From assembly GCF_037975245.1 (NCBI RefSeq), contig NC_092572.1, positions 1,525,501 to 1,589,500 of the forward strand: a stretch of DNA of 64,000 nucleotides, in the 5' to 3' direction. The DNA comes from Apostichopus japonicus (lineage: Eukaryota > Echinodermata > Holothuroidea > Aspidochirotida > Stichopodidae). A program made the position numbers and the translations under genes. The notes below the pieces were generated by a model. It was given only the letters and a program-made list of their open reading frames with translations. It made no database searches and was not told where the DNA came from. Positions 2,150 through 55,100 of this stretch are shown in pieces (position 1 is the stretch's first letter; every line of letters starts with the position of its first letter).

Positions 2150-2299
2150 TCACCGTATTACATTAGTATTTGCAATTTGTATGCAATGTGGATATTCTGG
2201 AAACCGAGGGTTGTGAAAGTCCACTAGATTTTCAACCTTTGGTAAATAGCTAAGCAGACGGATCGGCTTATCATATATCTCCAAAGAGTCGAGCTTTAC
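2150..2299 (-). CDS. C-terminal LRR-like exon, copy 1
   Basis: Begins in phase 0 after acceptor CAAACAG and encodes a short leucine-rich segment (LDSLEIYDKPIRLLSYLP, then VENLVDFHN). It ends at TGA (2,152-2,150). The stop overlaps a GTGAGT that looks like a splice donor. All three paralogues keep both the TGA and the GTGAGT at this point, so whether the exon is terminal or spliced is not settled by sequence. Confidence 0.55.
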   Translation of the reverse strand, partial: VKLDSLEIYDKPIRLLSYLPKVENLVDFHNPRFPEYPHCIQIANTNVIR

Positions 2300-2688
2300 C
2301 TGTTTGTATGAAATAATATATTTACAATTAATAACCATATTTCTATATATCTCGTTTAACGTCAGATGTAAATTAAAATAAATAGCTCTTTTATCTGAAT
2401 CTTAAATAATGTAAACGACGCAGATTAAATGTCTTCATTTTCAGTTTCTTGATCTTCCTGGAATTTACTTTCATGAGTACAAATTTAATTCAGAGACTTT
2501 GATGCAACAAGATTTCTCTGTTATACCAAACGAGTAAAAAAGACACGGTTTTGTCTAAAATAATGTGTGTTTAACTCGTAAACATACAGTCGAATGTCTT
2601 AAACAAACAATCATTTCGTTTGAATTATATCGTAATGACAACAAAGTAAGATGAAAATAAGATCAATGTAGAAATAGAAACCACTTAC

Positions 2689-3783
2689 ACCTGTTTCATT
2701 GAGAGTCTTCAATAAAAGCAGTATCGCTTCTTTGTAGTAATCACTTGTGCTTTGTCTGAACACCAGCTTCCTCATTTGTAACTTTCTAGCATAAAGTTTG
2801 TATTCCTCTTTGTCTTTTGTTCCTACTTTTAGTAAATATGCTAATATATCAAAGTTTGTAGATTGAGTAATAAACGTGGCGGTATCACCATCTTCGAAAA
2901 AATTAAACAAATTTTCTTTTTTAGTCGTACTGCTCCTACCGTTAGCATTTAAGTAGACTGACTTAAACAACCGAACAATTAATGGAGATATAGTGCGGTC
3001 AAGTTTATTGTAAATGTTCGGGTGATCGTTCAACTCATCTAACATTTCTTGAAGAGGTGTTGTTTGAGCTGTCCAACGTTGTCGTATTCCCTCCACAACT
3101 TTCAATATTTTCCACATTTTCCCATGCATCTCCATTTCAAAAAAATCTTTAATTTGTTGTTTACTAAACCCCCGCAGTTCTACCCGAGCGGTATTTTCGT
3201 GAAAACGTGTCATTTCAAGTACGTTATTATCGGAAGTTACCCAGATTTTCATTTTCTCGAATTTGCTTGCCTCATTATACAAAAGCTCTTCTACAGTTAA
3301 AATATGTTGATATGCATTGTGAAGACTCGATGGAGTGATACTAGGACTTGACCAATTGTTAATTCCATCTAACATTACAATGCTTTTTTTAGTCTGTATT
3401 TCATTATGTAGTGTTTGGCAAGCTTTCTCAGATATTTGACATCTCAATTTTGTTAAGATTTCCTCCAATATATTAGCGCCTTTGGGAACATAATCAAGCT
3501 GAAGGTATATCAAAATATAATCTTTAAGAATTTCTCCATTCATCCACCTCCTTGCTATGTTTTTGAATAAGTGTGATTTGCCAATAGCGCGTTCTCCACA
3601 AAATAACACTCGTTTATCATGGTCGCCCCGGCATAAATGGTGAAGAAGTATATCGTCGTTGTTCGCTGCTATATTTCCTTGTCCACTTTTTTATTTTATG
3701 TAACGTTATCTGGTAAATGCTATCACTGCACCAAGTTCTTCTCAAGGGAATGTAACTCTGCTTTAATTTTTGTTTCAACATAT
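2689..3783 (-). CDS. NACHT domain exon, copy 1
   Basis: A single 1,095-bp exon. Acceptor is TATTACAG, donor-like end is GTAAGTGG. Visible motifs: Walker A GERAIGKS, an aromatic/charged segment ARRWMNGEILKD, Walker B-like IVMLDGINNW and sensor-like IWVTSD. Length is 1 mod 3 relative to the paralogues, reflecting the +1 frameshift upstream of Walker A. The C-terminal half (ILAYLLKVGT, ARKLQMRKLVFRQS) matches the other two copies closely. Confidence 0.75.
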
Positions 3784-4085
3784 CTGTAATAGAATCGATC
3801 AATCGTAAACGTTTATAAAAATACATTGACTAATTTAAATTTTAGAAAAAAATCTAGCAAAAGCATGATACATATGGAGACCTGCGGTATTCATTATAAG
3901 ACCCAATAAGCACATCTCAACAACAGGAAGCAAACGTATGGACATGATAACTACTTAGGAGAAGTCACCTCTTGTATGGTAACACAGGGAACACATCGTA
4001 TATGTGGTTGGGAAATTGCCCTACTGTAACATATATTTAGAGAACAACAACAAAATATATTATTCAAAATTATTAAAACAGCTAC

Positions 4086-4190
4086 CTTGTTGACGAAGCC
4101 ACATCCATAGTCTTAAGCAAACGAAAGCTGCAGCTGTTATTATGAAGGCGAAAAACACAGCGATCACAGCTATGCTAGCCGTGGTGTTGT
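4086..4190 (-). CDS. Transmembrane exon of NACHT copy 1
   Basis: A 105-bp phase 1-1 exon with acceptor TTATCAG and donor GTAGCT. It encodes NNTTAS followed by a strongly hydrophobic run (IAVIAVFFAFIITAAAFVCL) and then RLWMWLRQQ. Aromatic and basic residues just after the helix place the C-terminal NACHT side in the cytoplasm. The same exon with the same phases occurs at 54,126-54,233 and 37,968-38,111. Confidence 0.7.
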
Positions 4191-4509
4191 CTGATAAATA
4201 AGATAGAAAGTCATTATTAAGAAGGCATTTATCCATCCACCAGCCATCCATCCAGCAAACCAGCCACATATACATATACAAGTGATTTTTACATGTTTAC
4301 ATCCTATTGCTATCTTATTGTACCTTTGCAGAGAAGTGCAAGAAAGAAGTGCAATACTTATTAAATCGTTTCCCTTACGCTTCAGAAAAGAACGTGACGT
4401 AACGATACAAAAATATGTGCAGGTTTTGTAAACACTCTATCCAGAAAGTCGAACAATTTTCTTATTATTTTCTATCTTTTTATCACCCTCTACTCTTGTT
4501 TAAGTAAAC

Positions 4510-17734: not shown

Positions 17735-20700
17735 GTAAGTTAGTGCATTAACATCTGGTAAAAGAATAAATAATGTTATAACAGAATCTAATACCAAGTT
17801 ACGGCACGTTTCATTTTACAGAAGGACACGAACAAACAACTGGAATTTGTGAAGAAATAGATGATATTCAGCCTTTTCTGACAACACTATGTAGTGTCCT
17901 GCCTGGGGATCCTGTCTGCCTTGTGTGCCCTGTTTATCAGGATAATGACGTAGAATGGATCACTGCTGATACTAGAATTGCTTATGGAGACATGAACTTG
18001 GGGAAACGTAAAAGTGTTTACGTAAATATCTGTCATGAGACGAATGCTTCGTTAAGTTTGAAACCTTGTGAAGGTGAGAATGAATCCTTTGTTCGATGTC
18101 AACAGAGCGAGAAAGTGTTGGCCAAATTTACACTCATATGTAAAATAGACGGTGAGTAGATTGTATTGCTTCTATTAGATATAAATTTGTCATATTTAAT
18201 TACAATATGAATTGGAAAATTACCCCTCAAAAGATGCAAAATGTGTGTTTTTTCAATAATATATATATATATAATTTAAAGTGTACGTTTAGCTTGTTTT
18301 CCCCTTTCCCTGCAAACAAAGTTAAAAGTGCAGGAGATCAGCCTGCTTAATTCATCTCCAATTCAAAATGAAATTTAATGCTAAAAAAACATAAAAATCT
18401 TCATAAAAAAGCGATATTCAACTCGGCATAAAATGTTTACTTTTATTTGTCTTGCTCTGCACTCAAATGTATTGATCAGAAAATTCATTTCAATAACAAA
18501 ACTACTTCGATTACCTTTTATAAAAACACACAATATATTTTAATAAGTATATATTCATCTGGCGCTGAGAGTGACACTCAATTTGTAATGGCAGTGGTAG
18601 AAAATATTAATATGAGCAATACTTTACGTTTACTTGTTGGTGTAAGTCTTCAATAGATGTTGCCACCGGTATCAATAACCATACCGATAACAGGGGTTAA
18701 ATCCCTTTGGTATTTTGAAACATATTTTAATGAAAGAATGTAAAGCAAGCATATATCACTGGTCTGACTATTCAATTAGGGAAAATTCAGAATGTAGACC
18801 CAAGTTATTTTAGGAAATATGTTATCTCAATTTTATCTTTAATGACAGATGTAGTGCCTGTGACAACTGGTAAACAAAGTTGTTTTTTTCCTTTCAAGTT
18901 TGTCTAAATAGTCATGCAAGTAATTTTAGGAAATATGTTTATCTATATTTTATCTTTAATGACAGATGCAGTGCTTGTGACAACTGGTAAACACAATTGT
19001 TTATTTCCTTTCAAGTTTGTCTAACTAGTCATACAATTCCAAGCTCAGCAAGGAAGTAAACTTAAAAAAAAATCTGATTCTATCATTTCTGCGAAAGCTC
19101 TTGATCCAGTTCTAACTATGAATTGATAAATTTTAGTAAAGTGACTTCATTCAGTTTCGTACTTAATTTCCCTTTATTGTTAACAGAAGGTCAATGTTAA
19201 ATTGTTTCCTTTGTAACGAGAAAAATAAAAATGAGCTAATCAAAACCGGTAATTGAAACATAAGTTCATGATATATTTATTACGGTATGGCAGACGATAG
19301 CTGGTACATACAGACGCAGAGCCAATAGGACATATTTTACAGCCATTAGCGAAACGGTCACTTGGTTATATGCACGAACGCTTTATTTCCTTGTCCACAG
19401 ATACTCTACATACAACACGGAAATCAGAAGGGCGAGAATCACGCCAATTAGAAAACACATGGATTATAGTAGCTGGTGCATTCGTGTTGATTTTCAATTG
19501 TCTGCTAGTCTGTGTTTGCATCACAGTCAGGAAATATAGATGTATGTAAAAGTGTTGTACATACCTTTGATATTTAAAGTTGAGGAACATAACTATTAAA
19601 GTAATATGTATTAAATAGACTTATGATGCCAAATAATATCGTACTGTGTTAAATGCGAAATAAAAATAATATTGTACGAATTGAAGCAGTTTCTAGGGGT
19701 AGCTATGTATTAGTCAACATTGATTGGACATTTTGTTCATACTTTCGTTAGGCATTATCTTTTCATCGATACCCTTAACAAATGTCATTAAAGGTGATCG
19801 TATGTTACAGCAGGGTATATTGATTGATTATAAGCAACACACTGTCAATCGTTACATTATAATGGCCTCTTAATAACTTGATACTAATAGATTAAGGATG
19901 CATGTAATGAACAGGTTTCTTAATTTTATTCCAAAATAAAATACCTAAAGAAAATGAGCTCTCAATAAACGTATCTTGGTATAGATATATGATTGGTTGA
20001 TAAACATGTTGACGAAAAAGTAATAGTAACCAAAATAAGTCATTTATTCTGCGTTAATTTACTTATTTTAGGTGGGTTAACCTCAGCTACTCTTTCCTTC
20101 TCTGTCCGTTTACAGTTCCAGTAACAAGAAACCGGCAAGGATGAGTATTATTGAAAATAAAAATAATATTGCGAAAATGCCCCCCCCCCCACTATCCCCT
20201 ACTTATACTCTTGAAATGATGTTTTAAATGTGTTTATGTTTGCTATGGAAAGCAGTCAAATTACCATTGACGTTGATAGTGCAATGAAACAGTTATACTT
20301 ACCTTTAATTAATTAATAATTGTTTTCCATTTGGTTTAGAAATCGAAATATCAACTCACGTCATCAAATGAACGTACTCGATAAAGACGCCCTAGATGCC
20401 GATCAATCAAGTAAGATGTATTTTCATGTCAACTAAGTTTCAGAATTTGAGATACGGAATACGGGATACCTATAATGATAATGTTATGGGCGAAGTGATT
20501 TTTAGTACGATTATATGCAAAAAATAGGACAAAAATATGGTATAACTTTCAAACAATAAATACTGGTGCACTTCAAAGTAAAGACACCAAAATAAATTCC
20601 TTTGAAACTATCTTACCAACTTGATCATTTTTCTAGATATCTTATGTAGATTAACACATTGATTCAATATGATGTATCACATCCTTTAGCACCTCGACAA

Positions 20701-23700
20701 AAATTGAAGTATATATAAAATAGAAAGAAATGAAGTTGTATAAGATAAAACACCGACAATATTATTTTACAGTTAATTGTAAGAAGAGACTGCCAGAAGG
20801 GAGGTAAGCTATGTTCTAAATGTTCTTTACAACTGTATAACGAAACCGACAAGTTTTAAACTAATTAACATACTAAATATTAAAGTTTATTATAGTTAGG
20901 ATAATTACAGGTAATTGGCAGTGATATATTAATAGATCATGACATGTGTTAATGTGAAAATAGAAGCGTATTCATGTAACTTCACGGATTATCGTCACTG
21001 ATTTCTGTAGCAGGAAAGAATTATCAAAGACACCTGTTGACGAGGAAAACTCACAAAACTCGCACAATTCTGGAGGAAGTGAACCTAGTAAGTTAATTCA
21101 AAATATCGATAGTAATTTAAATGAATCAATTAAAACGTAAAAACAGATTCATGTTACTTATTACACATCGCATGCACTAAACAAGAGATGCAGACAACAT
21201 TTGTCAATGAGAATGACGTCCCAATGTCTATAAAAGAAAATTGATACAACTGTTCGATACTTATGTCATTGTGTTATACAGTCCACCAAGAGTAAATTGT
21301 TACTGAAGGTCATATGGAGCCACTGTGTATTAATAAATACTGAGTATTTAAATGATAAACTCTCAAATAGGTTTTTTGCACTATTTCGTGAGTAATTTGC
21401 ATGTTTATCAGTTTAAGATATTTTTGTTCTCTTTCGCAGATTATTATTCTACAGTAGATGTAATTTCAGAAAAAGATCCCCGGATGTTGAATGAGAATGA
21501 TATTTCCATCATTATGAATATCAAGATAGGAAAAATCTACAAAAGATGGATGGGATCTATTTATCTTGCCAATGAGACCAATAAGTGTGTTGTAGTAACA
21601 ACTCTAACAGGCTAGTAAGATTATGATATACAATCATCGTACTTATTGAGTTTAAAGCCACGGTTAGATATTATATAATACAACGTCTGTATCGATTTTT
21701 GTGTGCAACAACGGTAAATTGTTGGCAATGTGCCCCTTTAAAATATCATTTAAAGATGAGAGGGGATTAAATGACATTGTGTACCAGTCCGAACTATATA
21801 TTGATCCATGACTGTTTATGGTTCTGTTTCTAGAAACACTTTTTAGAAAGAAAGAAATTCATTGGGAGGCTTACATCAGAAAATGTCTCGAATTACCAGC
21901 ATCGAACCATCTAGCAAAGATCGAGGCTATATCTATACAAAGCAGTGAGTTGTTATTGTCCATATTTTATTAATCAAGTAATAGTATATTGTTAATCTAT
22001 GTTAGTGAAATACAACCAAATTAAAATAAAGTCCATACACCCATAATTGTTCCGTTTTTAAAACTCCGAGGGTAAATATGTCCGCCATGTGGAATAAAAA
22101 GAAAATGCATATAACGATGACCTGATATGATCTTCTGGTCATAATGTATATGTGAACAAGAAGCTTATATTTTTATTACCATCTAAATGAGCTTTCCTAT
22201 GCTACAATAATTATATGCAGGACATTCCACATACGTTAACGTATTTTACTATAAACACGTTTTCTTTAACGTAGTTTCTTCTATTTTTTTCTTGTACTGT
22301 TTAAGATAAACTGTTTCTTATCAGTGAACACCTCGTTTGTGAAAGTATGCACAAAGTCTTGTCACGTGACACTAAAGATGAAAAGGACTTATACTGCTGT
22401 AGCTCATTAACAGTTCCTGACGTCATCAAACATATATCAGGAATTTTGGAAGGAATGGACATTCTAAATACGTTCGGGGTAAGTAATGATAGAACCTTCG
22501 CACTAAATATGTAGCAACCTAAACAACGTATTTTCATATAGCTGAGTTATTGAGTATTATCGTCATCGTCAATGTTTATTATAAACCTATCTTCCTGTTT
22601 AAAAGATCATTTCTAAGTAAACAATGTGTTTACAATTTTGTTCCATATGTGCTTCTCTTCACATGAACCAAAGTTATTGTTTTTCATCTTCGTTAAGTTC
22701 CTTCACCCTGGCTTAACAACGAAAAAGGTTTTGCTAACAAAAGGAGGACAGGTCAAATTATTTGACTTCTGTCTGGCTCGCGATGCACCGAGAATAGCTG
22801 CTCTCAAGAAAGAACAGGTAAAATGTAAAATGTAATTATATTAATTACAAGATTATGATCAAATAATGTGTTCAAAAGACAAATATATAATATCATCCAG
22901 TCAAAGCACTCAAAAAGCCGTCAAAATATTTTAATTAGCGTAATATCCTGGTGTAAGACACATCCGTAACCTTGAAACCTGTTAACAAAAATAGCCTGAG
23001 CTTTTCCTTTGGAATAATGCTACACGTTAGGCTTGTGCGTTCAAACTTTATATCGATGTCTCAATGTTAAAACATGTAACAATTATCTGTGTCATATTAA
23101 ATGTATTAATGGAATAACGAGGTCTATGATGTACATATATAACAAAGAACAACATAAACATATTAACTTAGCCTTCAGTGTGATTGCTTTTATTTCAAAA
23201 TGCTTCGATTAATATTGGATGATAGTATTTACCATAATTTGATCAAGTTCTCCACACACTCCCTTTAAGAATTTCATATTGTAATAGATAGTTTCAGAAA
23301 ACAAACAGTCGCCCCAATGCAGAACCAATGTTTACCGTGCAGCTAACTCAATTGTGGTTTAATACAACATTTTTTTCACATTTCTTTTTACAGCAGATTC
23401 GTTCCTTGACTTTGAATCAATTTCCACCTGAAATGTTAATGTCGAATCAATATACGCAATCCAGTGACGTGTGGTCTACAGCAGTAGCAATATGGGAGAT
23501 TATGAAAGCAGGTAAATCAAACTAAATTCCTATGAAAGCTTAATGCAGTTGCACGAAGAGAAAGTATCGACACTTATTTCAATTATGTAGCATAACATTG
23601 AACCGAATATAGCTATGTCACACTTGCAACAAAAAGGTATACGGTGATGTTCATATATGTATAAATGAATCTGTATATAAAGACATCTTGCGATTTATCA

Positions 23701-31286: not shown

Positions 31287-33101
31287 CTAATCAGTGTATC
31301 TTGAAACCATAAGACAGACATTTTGGTAAACAACATTAATGAAATAATTAGAAGATGAATTGGCACGGTAAGCATTAATATGTATTTGCAAATACAAAAC
31401 AATACTATGTGAGAATCACAGGAGATGTGAATGTTACAAAAAGGTGTTAAAAACCAAACGTACGACTTATTATAATTGAAATTAAAACTGAGAAACACAA
31501 TGTCATATATATGACTACAGCGATGACATCGCGCACAAGGCTGATCCTAATGTCATTTTTTTGTTTATGAAATAAATCAATTCATCAGTGCATAATAAAT
31601 GTAGATTCACGTGTATTCCGACTGCAAATAAGAAAACTAAATTGAGACAGGGCTCAGAGCTGACATTTCGATTAATATAAAAGGCTTCATGAAAGCATTG
31701 TATTTCTTATTAAAGAAGGTTTATTAATTTAATTTTTCTTCTTTTCCTTTTCGGTGCTGAGTTTTTTTTTTCTCTTGACACTGAGAAATATCAGTCAGCA
31801 TGTTGGTTTCATAAATATTGTTATTAAACTTTTGCAAGTTGTATACTACGCGTTGTTCTCTTGTTCTCTTGTCCACTTCTCCCACTCTCCATTTTTGCAT
31901 AAACGCTCATAAGGGGCATCTTCAGTCTTGCGAAAAACTGCCAATTGAAAAGAACATTTTTAGTTTTAATACGTCATTACAACTATTTGAAACCAAAGCA
32001 TTTACATGTATTTCTTTATTTATATTTTCTTCTCCTTTGATATAGGTGTTCAATGGATTATAAGACAAAAGTATAAAAAGAGCTGATATTTAGTTAAAGC
32101 AAATATTGCTATACATCTTCGTAAACATGTCTTTATATTGATCGATTGATGAACCATGGCAGCATATATTTTCTTGATGTAGTTAATTTTTCAAGGTCAT
32201 CCAATCATCTCAGTGTTTAAAAATGAAAACGCTTGCTTGCTTAGAGCCTCAAATTTTACGTTCTTCGAAATAACTTTACCATCCTAACTCAGTTTGATTA
32301 GCTACTCGAAACATGTTGTTTTGTTTATGTTATTGAATATCTACCTTCAATCTTCTCAATATCAACAATATCCTGTAGTTCATCTTGTGAAAGTCTTTCT
32401 GGGGTTTTGCTCTCATAAAACCTTGCGCAAACGAAGAGTAGAACAAATATAAACAGTATTAATCTTTTGCAGAGGTTGACTTCTCAAAGTATGTGTGTTA
32501 CTTTTTATTGGTTGATTATAAGAAGTCTCTGAAACGACAAACTGTTCATTCCAAGTAGAACACATAGTAGATTTTTATACGAATGGTAGCCTTAACATTT
32601 TCAAAAGTAATCTCAATCAATTCGGAGGAAATATAAAATCGTTAACAATTCTCTTATATGAAGTTCTATGCCGTCAATTTTAGAGTTCAACATGTCTAGG
32701 GCTTAAAGGTGAAGGCTATTAAACAATAATTCTAACCTTAATTTCTTAATTGATTTTTCGGGGGATATAAATTTAAAAAAAGGAAGACATTTAAACAGTA
32801 GTGTTCCGTGTATTATGGCCTATGTGAATAATGATTACATAATCTTTAAGGCAAATAGCAGTAACATATTAGCTATATCAGCTATTAAACAATGTAAATT
32901 TGTGTAATTATTTTCATTATTAGCGGACACAACAAGATAGGACATTGGTCTATATTTTATCAGTTTATTATATATGACAGCTTTATAACTGACAACTTGG
33001 CCTGTTAAAAAAATACTTAACGTGAACGTTATTTACGCTAGACAATACTTAATATTTAATATAAAACTCATGAGAAGAAAGTAAACAAATTCAAAAGTCA
33101 C

Positions 33102-33269
33102 TCACTTTATTTTCTTCGTCATTTGTGGAACCTTTTCCATGACAGCTTTGAATTTATCTTTGTTTGCTAAATGGACCCCGTGAAAGACAAGCCAATCGTC
33201 GATGTTTGGTAAACCGCTCAATTGAACAATTGGGAAGTCCCCATGTATCTCCAAAGATTTAAACGTGGT
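33102..33269 (-). CDS. LRR-like C-terminal exon, gene 2
   Basis: Starts in phase 0 after GCCGACAG; encodes FKSLEIHGDFPIVQLSGLP then IDDWLVFHGV, aligning with the terminal exons of copies 1 and 3. Ends at TGA within GTGAGT. Too short for a standard LRR solenoid. Confidence 0.55.
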   Translation of the reverse strand, partial: TTFKSLEIHGDFPIVQLSGLPNIDDWLVFHGVHLANKDKFKAVMEKVPQMTKKIK

Positions 33270-36200
33270 CTGTCGGCCAAAAGTATAAATATCAGTGTAT
33301 ATTTATTTGTTTCGGCAAAACGCTTTTGTATCATCGACAGTTTTTCCGCCGTTTCATCTGCGGGGGATTTGCTTTGATGCACACTATTGACAGTGGGTGT
33401 GACTCAAGTAGAATGCTATACTAATGGTAAACCAAGCGAAATTTCTGACGATACTGCAGGGAGACTCGATTGCTTGTCGTGCTTGATGATTGAACTTCTA
33501 CAGTAAATCAAGACACCAAATTCCGACAGATATGTAAAAAAACGTATAATCAACATTGGGGCCGGCCATCGACTCAAAGCGTAAAGTCATAGAGAGAAGG
33601 AACTCAAGAAGCTGTTCATTTACTGCAATGTTAAATATATAAAAGTAAGACGGCTTGATGTTGGGACGCTGTCAAAATCTTCCTCAGGCGGCCACGACGC
33701 AACAACTAAGGATACATTTAAGCTAGATGATGAACAGACCAATGAACATGTAATCGAACAAATTATATAGGTTTATAATTGAAAACAAAACAGAAGATAA
33801 CATTTTCAGATGGATATAAATTTAGTTAATGCGGAGAATTGGGACTAATAATGTAGGGAGTATAATTATTACGGACGATTTACCCAAATCAATACAGTAT
33901 GAAGACAACTTACATTATCTAATAGAAAAGCAAGATTGCATGAGAAGCAATAATGCTAATCGGATAATTTAAAGCAGTTTGCACATCGATGCTTTTGGTT
34001 TACAAGGAAACAATAATTTTGATTTACTAATTTAGATAATACAATGGTTATCATACCATCTATACCTTCTAGGTTAAAATTTCTAACTGAAAATCTGACT
34101 GTGTTTGGTACTAGAGGATATATAGTAGTAGCTAAGTCCTTACCTCTGCCTCCTTGCACTTCTTCAACAAGTGCAGTATTGCGTCTTGGTAATACTCTTC
34201 TGTGCTATGATGGAACACCAATTTCTTCATTTGTAACATTTTAGCATATTCTTTGTATTTTTCATCATCTTGCGTTCCTACTTCCAGTAAACATGCTAAT
34301 ATATCAAAGTTACCATTTTCTACAAGTTTTTCGATAGTCTGAAGCTTTTCTGCAAAGAACATGAACAAATCTTGTTCCAGCATTGTACTGTTTGTATCTA
34401 ATTGAATCGAAGCAAACAAGCGAGCAATTAATGGAGATTGTGTAATAAAATCTTTACAATGATAAACAGTTTCCATCTGAAATTGCCAATTTTCCAGAAT
34501 ATCTTCAGCAAGTTTGTAATTCAAGGGTCTGGCCTCGGGATTAAGTGTTTGATCTTTCGATTCCTGCTGCTTTTCCTTTAACATTCTGTACTCTTCCATG
34601 TTTTCCTCAAGTTTTTTATCTTCATTTTCTTGCCAAATTTTTTCAAAAAATGCAGTTCTTTGGATTTCGTTAAATCCTATAACGTCTATTCTTGTGTAAG
34701 GTTTGCTCATAACGTTCAAGTCCTTGTCAATGTTACAAGAGGTTACCCATAATTTCATATTTCTAAAGTTACCGATATAACCCTTCAAGATATGCTCCAC
34801 AGTTAGTCTCTTCTTACTGACTACATTCGATATATTATTATCATCATTATGAAGTCTTGACCAATTGCTAATACCATCTAACATTACAATGCTGTCTTTC
34901 CTTTCTAATTCCAAAATTAAACTATTCGCTTCATCAACAGACTTTTCTCGGTTCAACATTTTCATGAGTTCATCCAATATGCAAGCGTCTTTGGAAAGAT
35001 ATTGTAGCTGAAGGTAGATCAGAATAACATCTTTCATAATTTCCCCATTCTTCCACTTTCTGGATATGTCACGAAACAAATGAGATTTGCCAATACCAGG
35101 CTCGCCGACAAACAATACCCGGTTACCCTGGTCGCGCTTGGATAATACAGTAATCAGTTCATCGGCTTTATTCACATTTGATATGTCGTTGTCTGTGTAT
35201 GTTATCGTGTACTGACAGTCACCACACCAGCTGTCACTGAATGAGACTTGTTTTAATTCTTCCAACATATTAGTCTGCTTTACTTCTTCCAACAAAGTTC
35301 CTAACGAAAGAATATCAGAATAACAAACATTCATTTAAATGGCATTGTTATGTACTTCCACCCAAAAGTCTCCATCAAACTCAGAGAGACTACGTATCAT
35401 TCATCCTTTCAATATGTTATATTAAAAAATGAGGCCATTTAAGATCTTTTCAATTCATTCCACTGGTTAATATTTACCCTCCCCCCCAAAAAAAAAAAAA
35501 AACACAAAACAAAACAAAACAAAACAGAGCAAACAAACGATGCCATGAAAGCTTATTATTTTATGTGAAAGTCGCATTCAGGTACAACAGGCATTTTGAA
35601 AGAACATGAACTATTTGATTGAAGCCCTTTTACAATTTAATTAAACGTTCAGTTGTACCTTCTAAAATAACGATATATTCTGGCAAGGGCATCTCCCAAA
35701 AATTCAAGAGGCGACAAGCGCAATTCCATTTTCAGTAACCAATTTACTGTCCGAACATAAACTAGTTAACCGGTTAACCGTCCACATTGACACAGTGTGT
35801 TGTCGTGGGCATGGGTAAGGAATGTACTACGAAGGGCAGCAATATAATTTAGCCTATCAAGCAGATTCCATGTTTCTTATCTATATTTGGTACCTGCAGC
35901 CGCCAGGATATGGCTCCCTCGGGCTTTCTTCCTTAGGACAGATTTTTAAATTTCCATTAAGGTGAGTCTTAAGAGAGCATATGGCTTCATTTTTCTTTTG
36001 TTTTTGTGAAGGCCGGTTTTACTGGACGAATGATTTTGCGTAACCTGTTACCAGGTCCCAGGCCGCCGTACCGGTAGCATTGGCTCAGTTACGTTGCTCT
36101 CTGGTGGTCATTCTTAAGATTTTAGGTAGTACAGTAACATATCTGGCCATGTAATCAATTACAATCCGATAGGAAGGTTGTTTTTGCAAATTCGGCCGAC

Positions 36201-39200
36201 GGAGCTACTTGTAACTTGACAGGGTATACCAAAAGCGTATGGGGCAGATCGATTCTGAGACAGACATGCAGTTACTTAGAATGGCATTTGAGATTTGGTA
36301 ATTTGTTATACAATATCACCTGTATACGTGAAGCAAGTTTTTCCTATTGTGTACACTGTTTTTAGCTGGGAGCACAAGGGGTGCGGCGATGCGCCCAGAA
36401 CTTGGAGCATTTCCAGATAGTTTTTGTCCTATGCTGAAAATTGCTCAGTACATAAATATATGTCCGAAAGTTAAATTACTCTTTCACACTGTGAAATCAC
36501 TAGACAGTCATGGCTCATACTGTAAGTACTGTTCAAGTCCTGTAACACATGTAACGCATGTCACGAACACAAACCAATAATAACTGATGCACGATTGTGG
36601 ATCATTAAGAGTAGTTACTGTAGGCCTAACAACCACTGAGTGCGAGTTCTATAATACGCGATTCTAAAATGAGTTGTATCTAGTCGTTTTATGCCATAAG
36701 GAGGCCTACAGATATACCCAAACATGGCCTTTCATTCTCGGCTTGACAAATTGGCGTAATTTAAAGAGAGGATTGAACTGGAATCAAGCTGTACGGTACC
36801 TCCTCTACTTCAAACACATGGCTAATTCAGTAACTACTGGTGCCATCTGTAACACATGTTCCTACTGTTCATGTCCTACAACCGTGCATCAGTAATTACA
36901 ACTCTGTGTTCGTAACACGGTAACACGTGCTATATGTGGCACCAGCATTTTACTGTACTAGCTATGAGTATCGGCTAGTGGTAAGTATTTCATACCCCGT
37001 ATGGTGATATCGGAGGGGTGTGGGCAGAGCCCCATTGTTTATGGGAGTTAGCTGTCAGTCGTAGCAAGCGTAATTCTCGAATGTCGAAGTGAATGTCGGA
37101 GAGAGTAATTACAATTCTCCGGAATGTACTTTAAGGAAGGTGAGGGATCTGGTCACAACATTTTGATATTTTGACTTTGAAGTTGCTCCATTTTCTTTGA
37201 TTAAGACTCAGTAAAGTTAATACAGTTCACTAAATATATTTGATAACCCCTCTGTGGTCCAGAAGCTAACTTCCTGGTAGCTGTAGCACTTTGGTGTAAT
37301 TATTTCTGTAGCATCTCCTTTTCCACTAATAAAACATATAAGAGTGTTCCTTCGGTAGGTTTAAAGTCCATACAACTATGTCATATGCAGATCGTAAGGA
37401 GTTGAACATTGTTAAATATTGTTTCAAAAATTACAAAACATGGTAGTTTTACATGCAATTACCGTTCGTATAAGCGAGATTTCTCACAAGGGAGATAAAA
37501 TACACAGTTGGTAGAATCTCTTCTAGAAGGAAGAAATTATCACAAAACATTTTACACCCTCCCACTCCCGTAACAACGATAGTAGTTTCGCCCATGGTTT
37601 ATATACGTTATTATATTTAAATGGGCAAGTTACACCCACATGACATTTTGAAGAGAGTAGTTAAAAATGGAATTGCTAGATTATCACAGTTGGCTACACT
37701 TAAAACACACATAGTGGGTTGAATTGTTAAGTTGTTCAAATATGAGATCATGAAATCAAAAAGTACTAAACCTGATTTTCAGGATGTGTTCTAAAAGGTA
37801 TTCCGTTGTCTATGTGACATATTATATACTTATTTTGAATTTTGGAACATGCTCTGCGCTTAAATCGGTGTATAAGATTTACTTAGGAAGCAGATGTGAA
37901 AACTCTCCGTCTTCTAATAACGACTAAATAACTTTAACTAATGAACATACTTTACCCAATACATTACCTTGCCGTCCACCGTGCCGTCGATGTAGCTTAT
38001 AATAAAATATAGCTAAAGCAAAAAGAGTTATCCCCAAGACAGCCAAAACACACGTAACAATTACTTGCGTTGGAGAGCTCGTCTGTTTCGTGTTGTCGTC
38101 ATTGCATTCTTCTGAAAAGACATTAAGTTCACTAATTTGTTGATGTAAATATAGTCAAAAATAGTCAATTAACTTCGAAGTTAATTGACTATTTTTTGTG
38201 ATACCATAGCTCTACGTTTTCCAATAAACCTCCACGGTTTCTTATCTAATCAGGTAGAATAATCAACACATCACTTGTACAATCTTATACTACATATATA
38301 TTTCTTCCTACATTATATATGAATTATGACAATGGGAAAAAACAGGTCGATGTAATTTATTCGTGTTGCGTCTTCTGCTATATACAATTGGGCTTTGATA
38401 ACATTATGTAGCTGCAAATAAAGAGATAGTGTTTATCACTAAAGAACAAATAATAGTCATTTTTGTTCTAACTGTAATTAACTTACCTTATCTTATTTCA
38501 TAGTTTACATCTTGAATGTCATTTGAAAATCAGTTATATTACATGTAAAAAATCATTTTTAACTGAGCACAATGGATGCTCAGCGTTTGAAAGACTTACC
38601 TGATCGAATGTTAACTGTCTTATTTCCTATTGTCAGTATCTCTCGATCGTAATAAACAGAGCAGCGAAATATAGCATCTTCAGCACATTTCAATTCGAAG
38701 AGAATAGTAGTAGAAATATTCCAGGCATCCGTTATGTTATTCTTGATCTCAAATGATGTCTTCTCGGTGAATGTAGTATTATGTCCTTCGACACTCCAAT
38801 ACAAAGTAACATTCGGGCGTACCTGTTCTATGTAACAAGTTAAACTAGTAGGATCGTTGGATTTAACTCCTACGATGCATTCATCGCAGTTAGAACAAGA
38901 CTGGACGAGAGGACACGGAGGTGTCGGCGTGACTTCAAGAGAATAAAAGTATATACACCTGGATTAATATAGGTTGCAAAATTGCATTTTAGTTTAAATT
39001 AATTGTAACAATAACTGTGAACTTAGGACCATTGAATGATAGTGCATATCATTTTAACTGAAGATATTTTTCCCAAATTGCATCCGATGTTCCCTTTAAA
39101 TGTATAAATGTAGTGAAGTTGGACAATCTGTGTGATGTAAAGTGCTACAAATTTGTCTACACACATAAAATCTCAACAAAACAATCACAAATTATTGAAC

Positions 39201-40702
39201 AGAATAGCTGATCACACATATTTGTAACTCTGAACATAATGACGGAATATTTTAAGATCTGAACAATGCATATTTCAAGACTGAATCTTAAAAAAGAAAA
39301 AGAAAAGAAAAAGACAGGAAAGTAGAATGGCAATGCAAATACCAAGCATCATAATTGGTAGACTTCTCACCTATTATCAAGACTGAAATAGACCGTCTCC
39401 ACACGGTTCCGTTTTCAAAGATTACAGCATATGTGTAAGAGGCCTCGTGATCCAGCCTAGCATTGATAATTTTCATATTACCTTCAGAAGTAATGTCATA
39501 ATGGTCATCATCATACTTTTCTCCACCCTTTACACCATTCTCTAATTTAAGTATTGGTTTGGTCAGTGATATCGATCCCTGGTACCAATAATATCCCTCG
39601 ACGTTACCGCCAACGTCACAGTATATGGTGTTGGTTTCCATTCTTTCGACATATTGATTTGAAAGACATGTTTGGCAAAAACCTGCAAAAAAGTAAAACA
39701 ACAACAACAAATTCGAAAGTATTGTTGAAATCTGTACGTGAAAATCTATCACATTTTCCAATATTTTTGTAAACATAGATTTTGTCTTCCTTTTTCGAGG
39801 ACTTTTTCATGGAAGCGTTTGCTACAGTCCTCGATAAAACTAACTTCTTAAGGGGAGTGAGTACCGTCACTTAAGGCTTGCTAATATGTGATAAGTCCGC
39901 AATAATGAAACATTACAAAAGTAATTTTGATATTTTGAAGACCATTCAAAAGCAGCGCTAAAGGTTCATGATTTATTTATAGAATTACGGCAATGTGTTT
40001 TAAATTACTCTTTTTTCACCCGAAGTTTATCAATTAAATAACTAGCATATAATTAGTCTACCATGTTGGTTCAGCTCCTCACATGAAACAGAAAGCTCAA
40101 CAGCTATAATTGTGACTTAATGAACTGAAATAAAACGTTTAAAATGTCCTAACATTTTTCCAATGGATATGGTATTGAAAGTCATTGAAGATATCAGAAC
40201 ATATTTTATTGGTTAGTTAGAATCTGCAAGCCACTGATTCATTAGAGTTATTATTACTGATCAACCAATGAATCAATAGTACTGACTGTACCGAGGAGCC
40301 AGCGTCATTATCACTTTAACCTCGAATGATCGTTGCAGAGACTGAGCATACTTTACAGGTGAACGTCTTGAAAACCAGAATGACAATGAAGAAAAATCAC
40401 TATCTATCATACATTTCATTTTCTTAAATTATAACATATATCACATACAATTATGATATGACTTTCCTTCATAAACTAATTGCCAGACACTTTTTCTGTG
40501 GATTTTTCTGATGTATGTAATTGCTCTATAAAGAGTAGATATACTTCAACAGTCCGTAGCTACTTCATCCCAGCACCACAGAATCCCATGAATGTGTTTC
40601 TCCTTCAATGCACTGTTTTTGTATTCTTTTTAACAGTATTATAAGTACGTTACCTTCCACCACGAGGATGGATAACATGTAAAAAGACGAAAACATTATC
40701 AT
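33102..40702 (-). CDS. Transmembrane receptor: signal peptide, two Ig domains, helix, NACHT (gene 2)
   Basis: Six exons, 720 codons: 40,702-40,654; 39,682-39,371; 38,932-38,600; 38,111-37,968; 35,300-34,144; 33,269-33,102. Order: cleavable-type signal peptide (MIMFSSFYMLSILVVEG), Ig V-like domain (~17-120), Ig C-like domain with five N-glycosylation sequons (~121-231), helix (~252-273), NACHT NTPase (~281-665), LRR-like tail. All junctions up to NACHT are phase 1. NACHT motifs: GEPGIGKS, IVMLDGISNW, LWVTSC. Known NACHT proteins are cytosolic; here the NTPase is fused to a type I Ig receptor. The stop TGA (33,104-33,102) overlaps a GTGAGT; an ATTAAA lies ~45 bases downstream. A surface receptor whose binding switches the NTPase is inference. 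Confidence 0.8.
34144..35300 (-). CDS. NACHT domain exon, gene 2
   Basis: One 1,157-bp exon, phase 1 in, phase 0 out, 385 codons open. Walker A GEPGIGKSHLFRD, Walker B-like SIVMLDGISNW and sensor-like KLWVTSCN are visible. A charged, possibly coiled stretch (EENMEEYRMLKEKQQESK) sits in the middle and is longer than in the other two copies. The acidic pair that follows the Walker B Asp in typical NACHT proteins is replaced. Confidence 0.8.
35470..35530 (+). repeat. A-rich (AAAAC)n microsatellite
   Basis: A C-run, an A-run and about seven AAAAC units, just upstream of the NACHT exon acceptor of gene 2 (in the 2.7-kb intron 35,301-37,967). The rest of that intron shows nothing I can name. Confidence 0.7.
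37968..38111 (-). CDS. Transmembrane exon, gene 2
   Basis: A 144-bp phase 1-1 exon encoding a polar stalk (EECNDDNTKQTSSP), the helix VIVTCVLAVLGITLFALAIF and a basic stop-transfer tail (YYKLHRRHGGRQ). Orientation is therefore Ig outside, NACHT inside. Confidence 0.75.
38157..38196. repeat. Perfect 40-bp palindrome
   Basis: Two adjoining 20-base arms (AAAAATAGTCAATTAACTTC and its exact complement) with no spacer, inside the intron between the Ig C-like and transmembrane exons of gene 2. Confidence 0.9.
38600..38932 (-). CDS. Ig C-like exon, gene 2
   Basis: A 333-bp phase 1-1 exon. Starts with a Cys cluster (PCPLVQSCSNCDEC), followed by SLTCYIE, TLYWSVEG and AIFRCSVYY, the B-strand Cys, C-strand Trp and F-strand Cys of an Ig domain. 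Five sequons: NVT, NTT, NIT, NIS, NKT. Donor GTAAGT. Confidence 0.7.
39371..39682 (-). CDS. Ig V-like exon, gene 2
   Basis: A 312-bp phase 1-1 exon after acceptor TTTTTTGCAG. Ig signature: B-strand IYCDV, C-strand YYWYQG, then LDHEASYTYAVIF where the usual D-x-A-x-YYC motif has Tyr in place of the second Cys. CQTC at the N-terminus might supply another disulfide. One sequon (NGT). A single V-like domain at the tip is the usual ligand-binding position in Ig receptors. Confidence 0.7.
40654..40702 (-). CDS. Signal peptide exon, gene 2
   Basis: ATG at 40,702 gives 16 codons then a phase 1 GTAACG donor. The peptide is hydrophobic throughout. A second ATG lies at 40,696. 'aatttcag' just upstream (minus strand, ~40,733) could be a 5'UTR acceptor. 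Confidence 0.65.
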
Positions 40703-43024: not shown

Positions 43025-44574
43025 TTACACCTTCAAACGGTCAACTGTTTCATATATCGGCCAGTGTTACACGACATCGTGAAATTTAATGTCATCAATG
43101 ATATTCACATTCAATAAATACGAGCAGAATTAAGGAAAGTCGCCTAGTAACCATCAATAAAACTAACCCAATGATCTATGTTGGCTTGAAGGTGTTTAGT
43201 AGTAATATACATGTGCAAGTTATCCCATGCTGGAAACACTTACACTTTACCATATTTGTTTTCCCTCCAAACTAACAATATCAATTTGGGTTGGATAAGA
43301 CCCATTTAATGCACATGGTTAACTCATACAGAAAAAAAAGACTTGGTACATCGATATGATACATGCGCTACCGCAATTTTCATCTCCAACGACTCAATTG
43401 GTAAATGGTTTGATTGCGGTGAAATTCACATTATATTGATATATAACATTTGGTAAGGTTCCCTTTACTAACTCTGACACGGTTTGTATAACAAGAAAGG
43501 AATATCGACGCAAGTTATTCACATTATTCAGTGTCATAGTCTAAACACACAGGGAAAACAAAATGCCACTCATTTGTAAGCTCTCTTTGTCCTGTTATTC
43601 TCATTCTTTCAGTTAAAGAAAATGTGCATCTACTCTGTTCTACTAAGGTGAACTGTTGAAGGCCCAATGGCTTAACCAGAGATTATCAAGATGATATGCA
43701 AACGAAAATTCTGAATAAACTGATCCTTCACTTGTGTAGCACTCGTTTTGCCAATGCTAATTTTACGATATGCAAAAAAAAAAACGTTATATATTGGAGG
43801 AAGGGAGACATATGTACATGAACGTTTAGTTCCAACAACTTTAAAGCGTATGTTTGTCACTGTTAAAAAACACATAATTTTGTGTTAAGTATTTAAAATT
43901 GACAAAGGCAGAATTCACATTATATTTAAACTTACAATAGGTGGTAATGATCAACATTGAGACCCCACATTAGAATAATGCAAACGAATGATCAAAAATG
44001 AAAGAGTATATTGGACAATGGCGGCATGTTGGTGATATCAACAATATGAAAAACGCAGATCGCAAAAGAGATCGACTACTCAGCATTGCTGCTTAATCAC
44101 AGAACAGTTTATATATAATAATAGTCACACAAACCATTGTGATATTATAAGCAATTTGTGATAGTTTCAAGATCGATTAATGATAGACCATATTCAAATG
44201 ACTAACCTTGAACTTGTCGTTTGTGTTTGCTGCTGATGAGTAACCGAGAGCTTATACAGCTTTGCATGGAAGATATTCTATGTACACTACATCGACGAAT
44301 TAACTCGTGTTACCATCTATAGGGTTTTACAAAACGTGGACTTTGGAATAACGATTATAGACAGAGCTTGTTGCAAGGTAATTCTTTGTGATACAAATGC
44401 CAGTGCGACACACTTGCATCATTTGTTGTCGTGTACATGTAATGATGGGACAATTTCTTTCGTCATGCAAAGCATTCATCATGACTATTTGAACAATACG
44501 AATATTATTCTTTCAACATAAACCAAGGGCAGTATAATTTCTTTAAAGCTTTACTTGGGAGGACAGTATAGAGT

Positions 44575-52196: not shown

Positions 52197-55100
52197 TCAC
52201 TCTATTTTATTAGTATTTGCAATTGTTATGCAATCTGGATCCTCTGAGAACTGAGCGTTGTAAAAGACCACTTGATTCTCCACTTTTGGTAAATAGTTGA
52301 GCAGACGGATCGGGTTAGCATTATATACCTCCACAGAGTAAGGCTTTACCTATTTGTATGAAATAATATATAAATATATTAAATTCCTATATTAACATCA
52401 GCTATGAAATAAAATAACGAGTTATAGTATTCAAACTTTTAATATTTTAAACAACGCAGAGTATATAACCATCATTTACAGTTCATGACTTTTCTTCAGG
52501 GACAAACTTAACTTCATAATTACAAACTTAAATTTGTAGACTTTGCTGCAACAATACTTTTTTGTTGAACCAGGCGAATAAGAAATGCCACGGTTCTGTG
52601 TAAAATACTGTATGCTTAACGCGTCAATATAAACTAATGTCTAACATTACAATTCACAAAATTGTTTCATATGAGTTATATCGCAAAGAAATCCATATAA
52701 GTAAACGGCTAGATCAATGTAGAAATAGAAACCACTTACGTCTGTTTCATTGAGAGTCTTTAATAGATGCAGTATTGCTTCTTCATAGTAATCACTCCTG
52801 CTTTGTCTGAACACCAGCTTCTTCATTTGTAACATTCGAGCATATTTCTTGTATTCGTCTACGGTTTTTGTTCCTACTTTTAGTAAACATGCTAACATAT
52901 CAAAGTTTTTAGATTCGATAAGAAATGTGATGGTTTCAGACTTATGCGCACTGAAATTTAACAAATGTTCTACTAGCGGATCTCCATCACGTCCTTTAAT
53001 AGTTAGGTAGCGTGACGTTATTAACCGAGTAATTAATGGTGACCTAGTTAAGTAATTGTCTTCCCTTATTTCCAATGCATCTGCCATACTTGGTGTGTGA
53101 GTTTTCCATGGCAGTTTCCCTACAGAGCTGGGTATTTTCCACCCTTTTCCAGACATACCTTTTCGTAAAAATTCGTCTCTTTGTTTATTTGTAAAGCCTG
53201 CCAGTTCTACTTTAGTGTATAGTCCTTGGAAAAGTTCCTGGTTATGTTCAATATTATCGGATGTAACCCAGATTCTCATATTTTTGAAATGTTCTGGATT
53301 TCCTTTCAAAAGGTTTTCTACTGTCAGAGTATCTGTATTTCTTTTGTCAATATTCCAAGGAGTGGTAAGTCTTGACCAATCGTTAATTCCATCTAACATC
53401 ACAATGCTTTTTTTTTCTTTAAATGCTGAACTTAGTTTCTGGTACGCTTGCTGAGATATTTCATATTTCAAAAGTTTAAACGTTTCCTCTAATATATTGG
53501 CGCCTTTAGGAACATAAGGAAGCTGAAGGTATATCAGCATAAAATCTTTGAGAATTTCTCCTTTCATCCACCTCCTTGCTATGTTTCGGAAAAATTGTGA
53601 TTTGCCAATACCACGTTCTCCACAAAAAAGCACGCGTTTATCATTGCCGTTTAGGAATAAGGCATCAAGAAGTTCATCCTCTTTGGTCACCGTCTTATAT
53701 CTTTTTCCATTTTTCATATTTAACGTTATCTTGTAAGTGCTGTCACTAGACCGGGTTCCTCTAAAGGGTATGTAGCTCTGCTTCAAAGTTTCCATCAACG
53801 TATCTATATCGGAATCGAACAATATCATATACATTTATAAATTTACATTAAATAACTTTATTTTATTATAGCACAAGTATGATGCCGATGAAGACTTACG
53901 GCATTTGTTATAAGACCCATTTAGCACATCTCAACAACAGGAAGAAAAAGAAAAGAAAGATTAGTTAACGTATGAACCTTATAACTACTAAGTAGAAGTC
54001 ACAGTTAACTTGTCTTATATATGGTTTAGAAATTCTGCAGCTGTAACATAAGCTAATATTAAGCCAACGTATGTGTATTTGGTGAAACCCAAAAAATCAT
54101 AGCATACAAAAATGTTAACAGCTACCTTGTTTAAGACACCTCAGCAATAGTACCAGTAAAAGCAAACCACCCACTATCATGACGAATACCAGAGTCATCC
54201 AGGCCGTGATGATGTCTTCGTTAGCAGGATTGTCTGATAAACAAGATAGAACGTCATTATTATTTTATTTTATGATCCATCCATCCGTCCGTCCGTCCGT
54301 CCGTCCGTCCGTCCGTCCGTCCGTCCGTCCGTCCGTCCGTCCGTCCGTCCGTCCGTCCGTCCGTCCGTCCGTCCGTCCGTCCGTCCGTCCGTCCGTCCGT
54401 CCGTCCGTCCGTCCGTCCGTCCGTCCGTCCGTCCGTCCGTCCGTCCGTCCGTCCGTCCGTCCGTCCGTCCGTCCGTCCGTCCGTCCGTCCGTCCGTCCGT
54501 CCGTCCGTCCGTCCGTCCGTCCGTCCGTCCGTCCGTCCGTCCGTCCGTCCTTCTACTCGTCTTTTAATGTGTCATGTTGTATTCTTTCGTCTCAGTGGTA
54601 TTTAAAAATTACGTAAAATTAAAATGCGAGATATGAATCGTTCTCAAAGGTCATACACGTCTTTGAATTGTAAGAATTGCCCTCAACTGTAGCATTTTAG
54701 CAGGGTGGCTTACGTGGTTAATGTGTTCCTGTGTCACTTGTGAACACGTGTGTTTGACTATATCTCATCCTTTATTACATGTATCTTTCAATCTAGTTTT
54801 TTTATCAAGTTTAATGTAGAACTTTGCTTACTATTTACAGCATTTGTTTCGATAATTGAGTTTCTAATTGAAGTAACTACAGTAAGTAACTAACATCAGT
54901 AAATTAAAATAGGGCACTTCTAAGCAAATGCATCTTTCAAAACACTAATAACTTGGTCCCTCAATCCATATTAAAGACTAGCACAGTTTTGAATAGCATG
55001 TTAAGAGCTTTCTATGTTTAAGCACGAACAATGGTCACAACGTGCTCATTTATGTCCTGTAAAGGCAATCATAAAACCATATGTTTAAATTTTCTGCATT

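Follow-up and report, generated by a model that had tools for sequence, protein, structure and literature searches.

The window analysed here, a stretch of 64,000 nucleotides from the sea cucumber Apostichopus japonicus (contig NC_092572.1, positions 1,525,501 to 1,589,500), carries on its minus strand a gene in which a putative signal peptide, two Ig-like domains, one membrane helix and a NACHT domain are joined in a single protein (Table 1). A first-pass annotation had proposed six phase-compatible exons in one 720-codon frame, ending in a short tail. The 720 residues are 100% identical to the NCBI "uncharacterized protein" P0001. Exons 1 to 5 of this model stand, with AG/GT borders at the introns and a single joined frame. 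The sixth does not end as proposed: the supposed stop codon (33104-33102) falls inside a splice donor (AAA/GTGAGT), and the one chain that a splice-site scan found to reproduce P0001 from the first-pass ATG to the end continues through two further exons before it reaches TAG. The corrected product thus comprises 775 residues, and its tail is not short.

The NCBI model additionally contains a 5' exon with an upstream in-frame ATG, which is probably 5' UTR or encodes an alternative N-terminus. Since the aligned starts of the paralogues P0002-P0007 lie at most two residues from the ATG at 40702, we retained the latter as start. The exon that carries this ATG itself begins at about 40725.

Table 1. 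Features on the minus strand of the window (positions within the 64,000 nucleotides).
Feature	Position	Strand	Remarks
NCBI-annotated 5' exon, upstream in-frame ATG	44207..44267 (lower limit approximate)	-	tblastn of P0001 residues 1-20 at 100%; GT donor follows
Coding exon 1, from the retained ATG	40654..40702	-	hydrophobic, signal-peptide-like MIMFSSFYMLSILVVEG; splice chain, aligned starts of P0002-P0007
Coding exon 2	39371..39682	-	first Ig-like domain (Ig1), V-like; flanking introns phase 1
Coding exon 3	38600..38932	-	second Ig-like domain (Ig2), C1-like; phase 1-1
Coding exon 4	37968..38111	-	stalk, membrane helix (P0001 276-294), basic stop-transfer KLHRRHGGR; phase 1-1
Coding exon 5	34144..35300	-	NACHT and helical part after it; Walker A GEPGIGKS, Walker B IVMLDGISNW, sensor 1 WVTSC
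Coding exon 6	33106..33269	-	start of tail; GTGAGT donor at end
Coding exon 7	32345..32421	-	absent from first-pass model
Coding exon 8	31849..31937	-	C-terminus ...GEWEKWTREQENNA, then stop codon
Paralogue P0019	52200..55637	-	TM exon and NACHT exon, no Ig exons
Paralogue-like copy	2153..4194	-	weak TM-exon match and NACHT exon

A tandem family with a short and a long form

Ig, TM and NACHT occur in the same order in eight further gene models from two assemblies (P0002-P0009), of which P0006 lacks part of Ig2 and P0008 begins within Ig1. Together, 21 proteins form a short clade, which stands at 100/100 against 10 long forms. Long relatives are present in both Holothuria leucospilota and A. 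japonicus, and the profiles of the two forms can be aligned across 722 columns (probability 99.6, E 1.5e-24). Protein searches at E 0.001, which catch only relatives with shared exact words and two of which scored no more than about 8,000 top candidates, gave no named organism beyond these two species among the matches listed.

Two relatives lie in the window itself. In the P0019 locus a phase-1 junction precedes the NACHT exon, as it does in the focal gene; the reconstructed chain of 457 residues matches at least the first 440 of the 465 residues of P0019, while the last residues differ. The frame of the second copy is broken near 3690, and its Walker A motif reads GERAIGKS. P0009, moreover, has an ectodomain strongly different from that of the other short forms, putatively a swapped one. 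The short clade has diversified by tandem duplication and probably also through exchange of phase-1 exons. The Ig exons on the plus strand of the window show no similarity to 40 proteins of the family search (blastp and phmmer, E 1).

The conserved domain order bears directly on whether the Ig/TM exons and the NACHT exon might stem from separate genes. The NCBI models are predictions, and three BSL78 models are shorter (P0010, P0011 and P0012, the latter two beginning at the TM segment). The order, however, is common to P0001-P0009 and to the long forms of a second sea cucumber, and the related AjNLRC4 was reported from a transcriptome (PMC8699970), so that a gene-model artefact appears highly improbable.

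The architecture, regarded as not established in the first-pass annotation, is already known from the same species, which rules out its novelty. AjNLRC4 (MN607598) was described in 2021 as having extracellular Ig domains and an intracellular NACHT, together with work on Vibrio phagocytosis (PMC8699970), and follow-ups on such receptors appeared in 2025 (PMC11932488) and 2026 (AjNLR-new, PIK48001.1, 1197 aa; PMC13133943). Neither CARD nor LRR is reported for AjNLRC4. Its published helix (483-503) and NACHT (600-757) imply a long ectodomain resembling that of the long forms, whereas the focal gene has two Ig domains, about 775 residues and a Walker B motif without DE. Homology to AjNLRC4 was judged from these domain positions and from primer translations: two of its primers translate to GTPQYLEL and AFPVVSGC (compare SPQYLE and PVFPVIDGC in long forms), and in the window its primers are absent, the best site for each oligo on each strand still having 5-10 mismatches. 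AjNLR-new is likewise a single protein with Ig, TM and NACHT but is longer than the focal product and is claimed to have an inverted topology; P0033, matched to it by length alone, retains DGFDE. The Holothuria leucospilota proteins P0026, P0027, P0030 and P0031 (NLRC4 or NLRP14 by source name) share the order and, tail included, homologous profiles, but are of the long form with DGFDE/DGYDE and FYHKLFCEWYA. Further afield, the domain listing for Chiridota heheva gives sea-cucumber NLRs with a V-set domain (PMC8913654). Sea-anemone (PMC5094078) and sponge (PMC12909245) NLRs share predicted membrane helices with the focal gene; those of the sea anemone, called by NACHT plus LRR, have three to five N-terminal helices, and the accounts of these receptors consulted in both sources describe no Ig ectodomain linked to NACHT.

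Ectodomain and membrane topology

In the focal copy both Ig matches remain below the Pfam cutoffs (C1-set 17.5 bits, cutoff 21; V-set 14.5 bits, cutoff 26). The paralogue P0009, by contrast, passes the V-set cutoff with 38.5 bits, and the family profile matches antibody light chains (best E 1.4e-4), so that the N-terminal part can be regarded as an Ig-bearing ectodomain, although its AlphaFold2 model is unusable (pLDDT mostly under 50). A hydropathy scan, used here in place of dedicated signal-peptide or TM programs, called the signal-peptide-like segment and a single strong helix (mean KD 2.86) followed by the basic stretch, with NACHT C-terminal to it; the helix and stop-transfer tail thus hold as first annotated. 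Across 18 proteins, sequons are more frequent N-terminal than C-terminal of the helix (1.79 versus 0.59 per 100 residues), and Lys/Arg in the 12 residues that follow it outnumber those in the 12 residues that precede it in 16 of the proteins (one tie, one reverse). We infer that the focal protein is a type I membrane receptor with the Ig part outside and NACHT inside.

For AjNLR-new the opposite orientation was proposed, with Ig inside and NACHT outside, based on a TMHMM prediction and on binding of recombinant NACHT to coelomocytes that an antibody blocked (PMC13133943). The reported binding of caspase-1 by the AjNLRC4 Ig part (PMC11932488) would also fit such an arrangement. The hydropathy of P0033, the protein of equal length, nevertheless shows no peaks other than those at 2-20 (signal-peptide-like) and 480-498, the term "signal peptide" is absent from the main texts of PMC8699970 and PMC13133943, and sequons and charge are distributed against an inversion, which we hence consider very unlikely. 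The second helix of AjNLRC4 and the inverted topology of AjNLR-new look like prediction artefacts. The caspase-1 binding was described for internalised AjNLRC4 in the cytoplasm; a plain type I topology leaves it unexplained.

NACHT motifs and segment conservation

The NACHT domain of the focal gene scores 40.1 bits (E 4.2e-10), well above the Pfam cutoff of 26.7. In line with this, Foldseek returned NLRC4, NOD2 and NLRP3 as top matches (best E 8.9e-9), albeit from only fair AlphaFold2 models (mean pLDDT 53.3 for the entire protein, 62.8 for exon 5) and with TM-scores near 0.2 for whole-chain matches. Profile and fold together support the NACHT call of the first-pass annotation and place the domain in the STAND class. 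A sequence-only search of the PDB with the short-family profile recovered just a single NLR chain (7crw, E 0.0092). No LRR family appeared in the Pfam output (E 1 and E 0.01); the tail is modelled as strands alternating with helices, with pLDDT mostly about 70-80.

All 21 short forms retain the Lys of Walker A and the Mg-binding Asp, whereas none of them has both acids of the DE pair in the hhhhDGxDE motif: position +3 is Ser (17) or Asn (4), and position +4 is Asn (19) or, in P0013 and P0019, Asp (2). In the long forms the pair is intact in 10/12, the segment being absent from the other two models. At the sensor 1 position 14 short forms have Arg and three, the focal gene among them, Cys. These replacements make the coupling of recognition to an NTP-driven switch, as originally proposed, doubtful. 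That the domain nevertheless works as an ATP-hydrolysing switch is favoured by the invariant P-loop Lys and Mg Asp, by a His at a WHD-like position in 14 of those 20 short forms that have a residue in this column, and by mutant data for NLRP3. In these data (PMC9633759), ATP turnover falls to 0.18 (D305A), 0.22 (E306Q) and 0.10 (R351T), but the double mutant D305A/E306Q retains 0.42, so that loss of DE need not abolish hydrolysis. Given the replacement of both acids, their retention in the long relatives and the Cys at sensor 1 of the focal gene, we regard a hydrolysing switch as unlikely.

The strict winged-helix motif F.H..F.EW.A occurs in 0/21 short and 12/12 long forms. Its absence, together with a global profile alignment that places the WHD-like stretch in the tail, points to a loss of the winged helix in the short clade; the exon-5 model, which spans NLRP3 134-538, counters this.

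Among eight proteins (P0009 left out), conservation was higher in Ig1 than in the NACHT core for 28/28 pairs. Mean protein-level identities over these pairs, which are not independent of each other, are 80.2% for Ig1, 72.0% for Ig2, 67.7% for the NACHT core, 56.8% for the post-core and 59.0% for the tail. Ig1 exceeds the post-core by 23.3 points (column bootstrap 16.4 to 29.6), while the difference between Ig2 and core (4.3 points, -2.7 to 12.2) includes zero. With the divergent P0009 included, Ig1 is ahead in 28/36 pairs, compared to 0/36 in long forms. Exchange between subclades is ruled out as the cause, since Ig1 retains the highest between/within-subclade ratio of seven segments (3.13). 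One possible though rather doubtful explanation is that the family is modular: the conserved Ig part would provide generic or homotypic docking, and the post-core and tail, which change faster, would vary among copies, e.g. for sensing or avoiding intracellular effectors. The excess of Ig1 over the post-core and the subclade ratio speak for it; against it stand the non-independent pairs, the omission of P0009, the Ig2 interval spanning zero, and relaxed constraint inside, which accounts for the protein-level pattern equally well.

Proposed working of the receptor

Gene structure, domain order, family, NACHT fold class and motif states were derived here from sequence and prediction. The account we favour, with moderate confidence as a whole, is that of a type I receptor with Ig outside and a NACHT scaffold inside, belonging to a tandemly duplicated short clade. 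Hereby, the signal peptide and two Ig-like domains would lie outside the cell, the helix with its basic tail would cross the membrane, and NACHT and the tail would lie inside. By analogy with AjNLRC4, which is reported to bind microbes via Ig and to be located in the coelomocyte membrane (PMC8699970), the protein may function at the surface of coelomocytes (immune cells), recognise microbes or some other conserved surface ligand, and cluster upon ligand binding. As the DE of DGxDE is missing, NACHT would probably bind nucleotide but cleave it poorly or not at all, and its main role would then be that of an oligomerising scaffold, not of a cycling ATP switch. A candidate partner is actin, reported to be bound by the NACHT part of AjNLRC4 with a Kd of 5.87 uM (PMC8699970). 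A more specific version, which we put forward tentatively and at less than even chances, is a membrane-tethered, nucleotide-locked scaffold with constant outer Ig and diversifying inside, in which Ig modules, carried on phase-1 exons, are gained, lost or exchanged before one TM-NACHT exon pair.

Compared to the published receptors, whose overall design is the same, the short clade is distinguished by its loss of DE and its unusually conserved outer part. We found no description of the clade, the DE loss or the Ig1 pattern in the open-access literature, searched largely by other terms, nor of phase-1 exon modules, an Ig-less neighbour or a putatively swapped ectodomain in the open-access A. japonicus receptor papers. 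The type I assignment also gives a simple way, open to testing, of correcting two published topologies that contradict each other. The data indicate that surface NLR-type receptors are a modular, tandemly duplicated family in two sea-cucumber genera and not a single curiosity. One branch of this family has probably lost the ability to cleave ATP efficiently, which would make it possible to test directly if a NACHT domain can signal purely as a scaffold.

Gene model and neighbouring genes

The 720-residue product proposed in the first-pass annotation for the minus-strand Ig-Ig-TM-NACHT gene matches the NCBI A. japonicus protein P0001 (803 aa) with 100% identity across all 720 residues; P0001-P0040 denote here the proteins returned by our searches. 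The annotation proved largely correct. Its exons 1-5 hold, but its 3' end and stop are wrong: the final codons of exon 6 continue into AAA|GTGAGT without a terminating stop. In a splice-site scan a single chain recovers P0001 from the proposed ATG through the C-terminus, using a donor after 33106, an acceptor before 32421, a donor after 32345 and an acceptor before 31937, and yields 775 residues followed by a TAG stop. The first four introns, which follow exons 1-4, share phase 1 (the subsequent ones are phases 0, 2 and 1), so that each Ig or TM exon forms a symmetric module whose in-frame gain or loss is possible. The NCBI start of P0001 lies 28 residues upstream of the proposed ATG, within an additional 5' exon. 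Since the related proteins P0002-P0007 align with starts at most 2 residues from this ATG, we regard the additional exon as a putative 5' UTR or alternative start.

Features of the window around the Ig-TM-NACHT gene
Feature	Position	Strand	Evidence or remark
NACHT-family copy	2153-4194	-	NACHT exon frame change near 3690; Walker A GERAIGKS
Ig-like exon, TM-like ORF and tyrosine-kinase exon	17782-23522	+	Pattern by eye, ORF, Pfam/PDB matches
TM-like ORF	19301-19546	+	
Tyrosine-kinase exon	23292-23522	+	PF07714, E 7.5e-8; PDB matches EGFR, ROR1, TRK
Ig-TM-NACHT gene, first-pass exons	40702..33102	-	NCBI model P0001
Second gene	52,200-55,637	-	99-100% identity to A. japonicus P0019 across four stretches
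Long (PSVR)n-encoding repeat	54250-54616		Low complexity
Further copy of the Ig-like exon with a TM-like ORF	59779-61709	+	Ig-like exon 68% identical to the first
TM-like ORF with the second Ig-like copy	61473-61709	+	

In the Ig-less neighbour at about 52-56 kb the TM exon joins the NACHT exon with phase 1, as in the focal gene. In another assembly, BSL78_06492 (P0013, a relative of P0019) and BSL78_06493 (P0002, a relative of the focal gene) carry consecutive locus names, which agrees with the gene order in the window. The first NACHT-family copy is either degenerate or affected by a sequence error. On the opposite strand to the NACHT genes lies possibly an Ig-TM-tyrosine-kinase gene, whose Ig-like exon shows a C..W..C pattern by eye without a Pfam hit; the two copies of this exon suggest a duplicated family interleaved among the NACHT genes.

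Short and long forms of the family

Three protein searches provided a set of 40 proteins. The short forms (P0001-P0021) are all named A. japonicus. P0001-P0009 combine an Ig ectodomain, TM and NACHT, with P0006 lacking part of Ig2 and P0008 beginning within Ig1; P0010 is truncated and lacks the TM, P0021 has one Ig-like stretch only, and the remainder carry at most one short stretch and a TM before NACHT. The long forms (P0026-P0036 and P0040), from sources including Holothuria leucospilota and A. japonicus, have roughly four Ig domains followed by a TM and NACHT; P0036 and P0040 were grouped here though their models lack the Walker B segment. In P0022-P0025 and P0037-P0039 a motif search found no NACHT motif, and no NACHT domain is listed. 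P0022, P0024 and P0025 are Ig-TM proteins with Pfam PF13393, the latter two named histidine-tRNA ligase (H. leucospilota); as the combination is recurrent, it reflects either annotation fusing neighbouring genes or read-through.

Profile alignment of short and long forms spans 722 columns (prob 99.6, E 1.5e-24); in it Ig1 and Ig2 of the short forms pair with Ig1 and Ig4, respectively, of the long forms. In a NACHT-core tree (21 short, 10 long) the groups fall on opposite sides of a 100/100 branch, separated by long branches, a risk flagged by the tool. Together, alignment and tree indicate that Ig-TM-NACHT is common to two sea-cucumber genera and that the short clade is a single lineage.

Mean identity over the 28 pairs of eight Ig-bearing short forms (P0009 left out) is 80.2% in Ig1, 72.0% in Ig2, 57.3% in stalk/TM, 58.1% in the linker, 67.7% in the NACHT core, 56.8% in the post-core and 59.0% in the tail. 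Ig1 is more conserved than the core in all 28 pairs (28/36 with P0009), with a margin of 12.4 points (column bootstrap 4.6 to 19.0). The corresponding margin of Ig2 is 4.3 points (-2.7 to 12.2, zero within range). In the long forms no pair (0/36) has Ig1 above the core. Since the pairs are not independent by descent and short and long forms differ in depth, this is a pattern and not a selection test. Exchange between subclades does not account for it, as Ig1 differences between subclades are about 3 times those within. P0009 and P0004 share 82-86% identity in stalk/TM, linker, core and tail and 74% in the post-core, falling to 34% in Ig1 and 28% in Ig2 with a break near the exon 3/4 border; its divergent ectodomain may result from real exchange or gene-model fusion.

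NACHT motifs, topology and published relatives

All 21 short forms retain the Walker A Lys and the Mg Asp. At the DE pair, the acidic residues of Walker B DGxDE, the first place is Ser (17/21) or Asn (4/21) and the second Asn (19/21) or Asp (2/21); DE is kept in 10/12 long forms, the other two models lacking the segment. The sensor 1 column of the short forms holds Arg (14), Cys (3: P0001, P0002, P0003), Val (1), Asp (1) and two gaps; a separate motif search gave Asp in P0014, P0015 and P0019. For human NLRP3, PMC9633759 reports ATP turnover reduced to 0.18 (D305A), 0.22 (E306Q), 0.22 (D305A/E306A), 0.42 (D305A/E306Q) and 0.10 (R351T), and NLR pseudoenzymes are discussed in a review (PMC7583971). 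Reduced hydrolysis by the short-form NACHT is the straightforward prediction.

Two membrane helices, 483-503 and 776-795, are reported for the published AjNLRC4 (PMC8699970). Our hydropathy scan of the long forms gives a strong helix near 430-510 and, in 6/12, a weaker peak within the NACHT region, formed by a conserved stretch (ILxxLCQVPLxFVxFAHM or similar; 776-794 in P0027). When the long-form profile is aligned to NLRC4 structures, the stretch falls within their NACHT module; we infer that the second AjNLRC4 helix is one buried in the NACHT domain. An inverted arrangement, Ig inside with NACHT outside, is claimed for AjNLR-new on the basis of TMHMM, recombinant-protein binding and antibody blocking (PMC13133943). 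P0033, of the same length and a candidate equivalent (computed 136.5 kDa, pI 5.15; published 136 kDa, pI 5.34), has hydropathy peaks at 2-20 and 480-498 only. The former resembles a signal peptide, and on that reading Ig would again lie outside; the phrase 'signal peptide' is absent from the main texts of PMC8699970 and PMC13133943. Sequon and charge distribution are likewise consistent with type I topology. Against it stands the reported binding of caspase-1 by the Ig part of internalised AjNLRC4 (PMC11932488), not expected of a luminal Ig part.

AjNLRC4 reportedly binds bacteria, LPS, PGN and mannan by way of its Ig part and beta-actin by way of its NACHT part; dimerisation and internalisation with Vibrio are reported as well (PMC8699970). 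The architecture, which the first-pass annotation did not know as established, is already in print for A. japonicus (AjNLRC4, PMC8699970; AjNLR-new, PMC13133943). The focal gene is a distinct short, DE-less variant of it.
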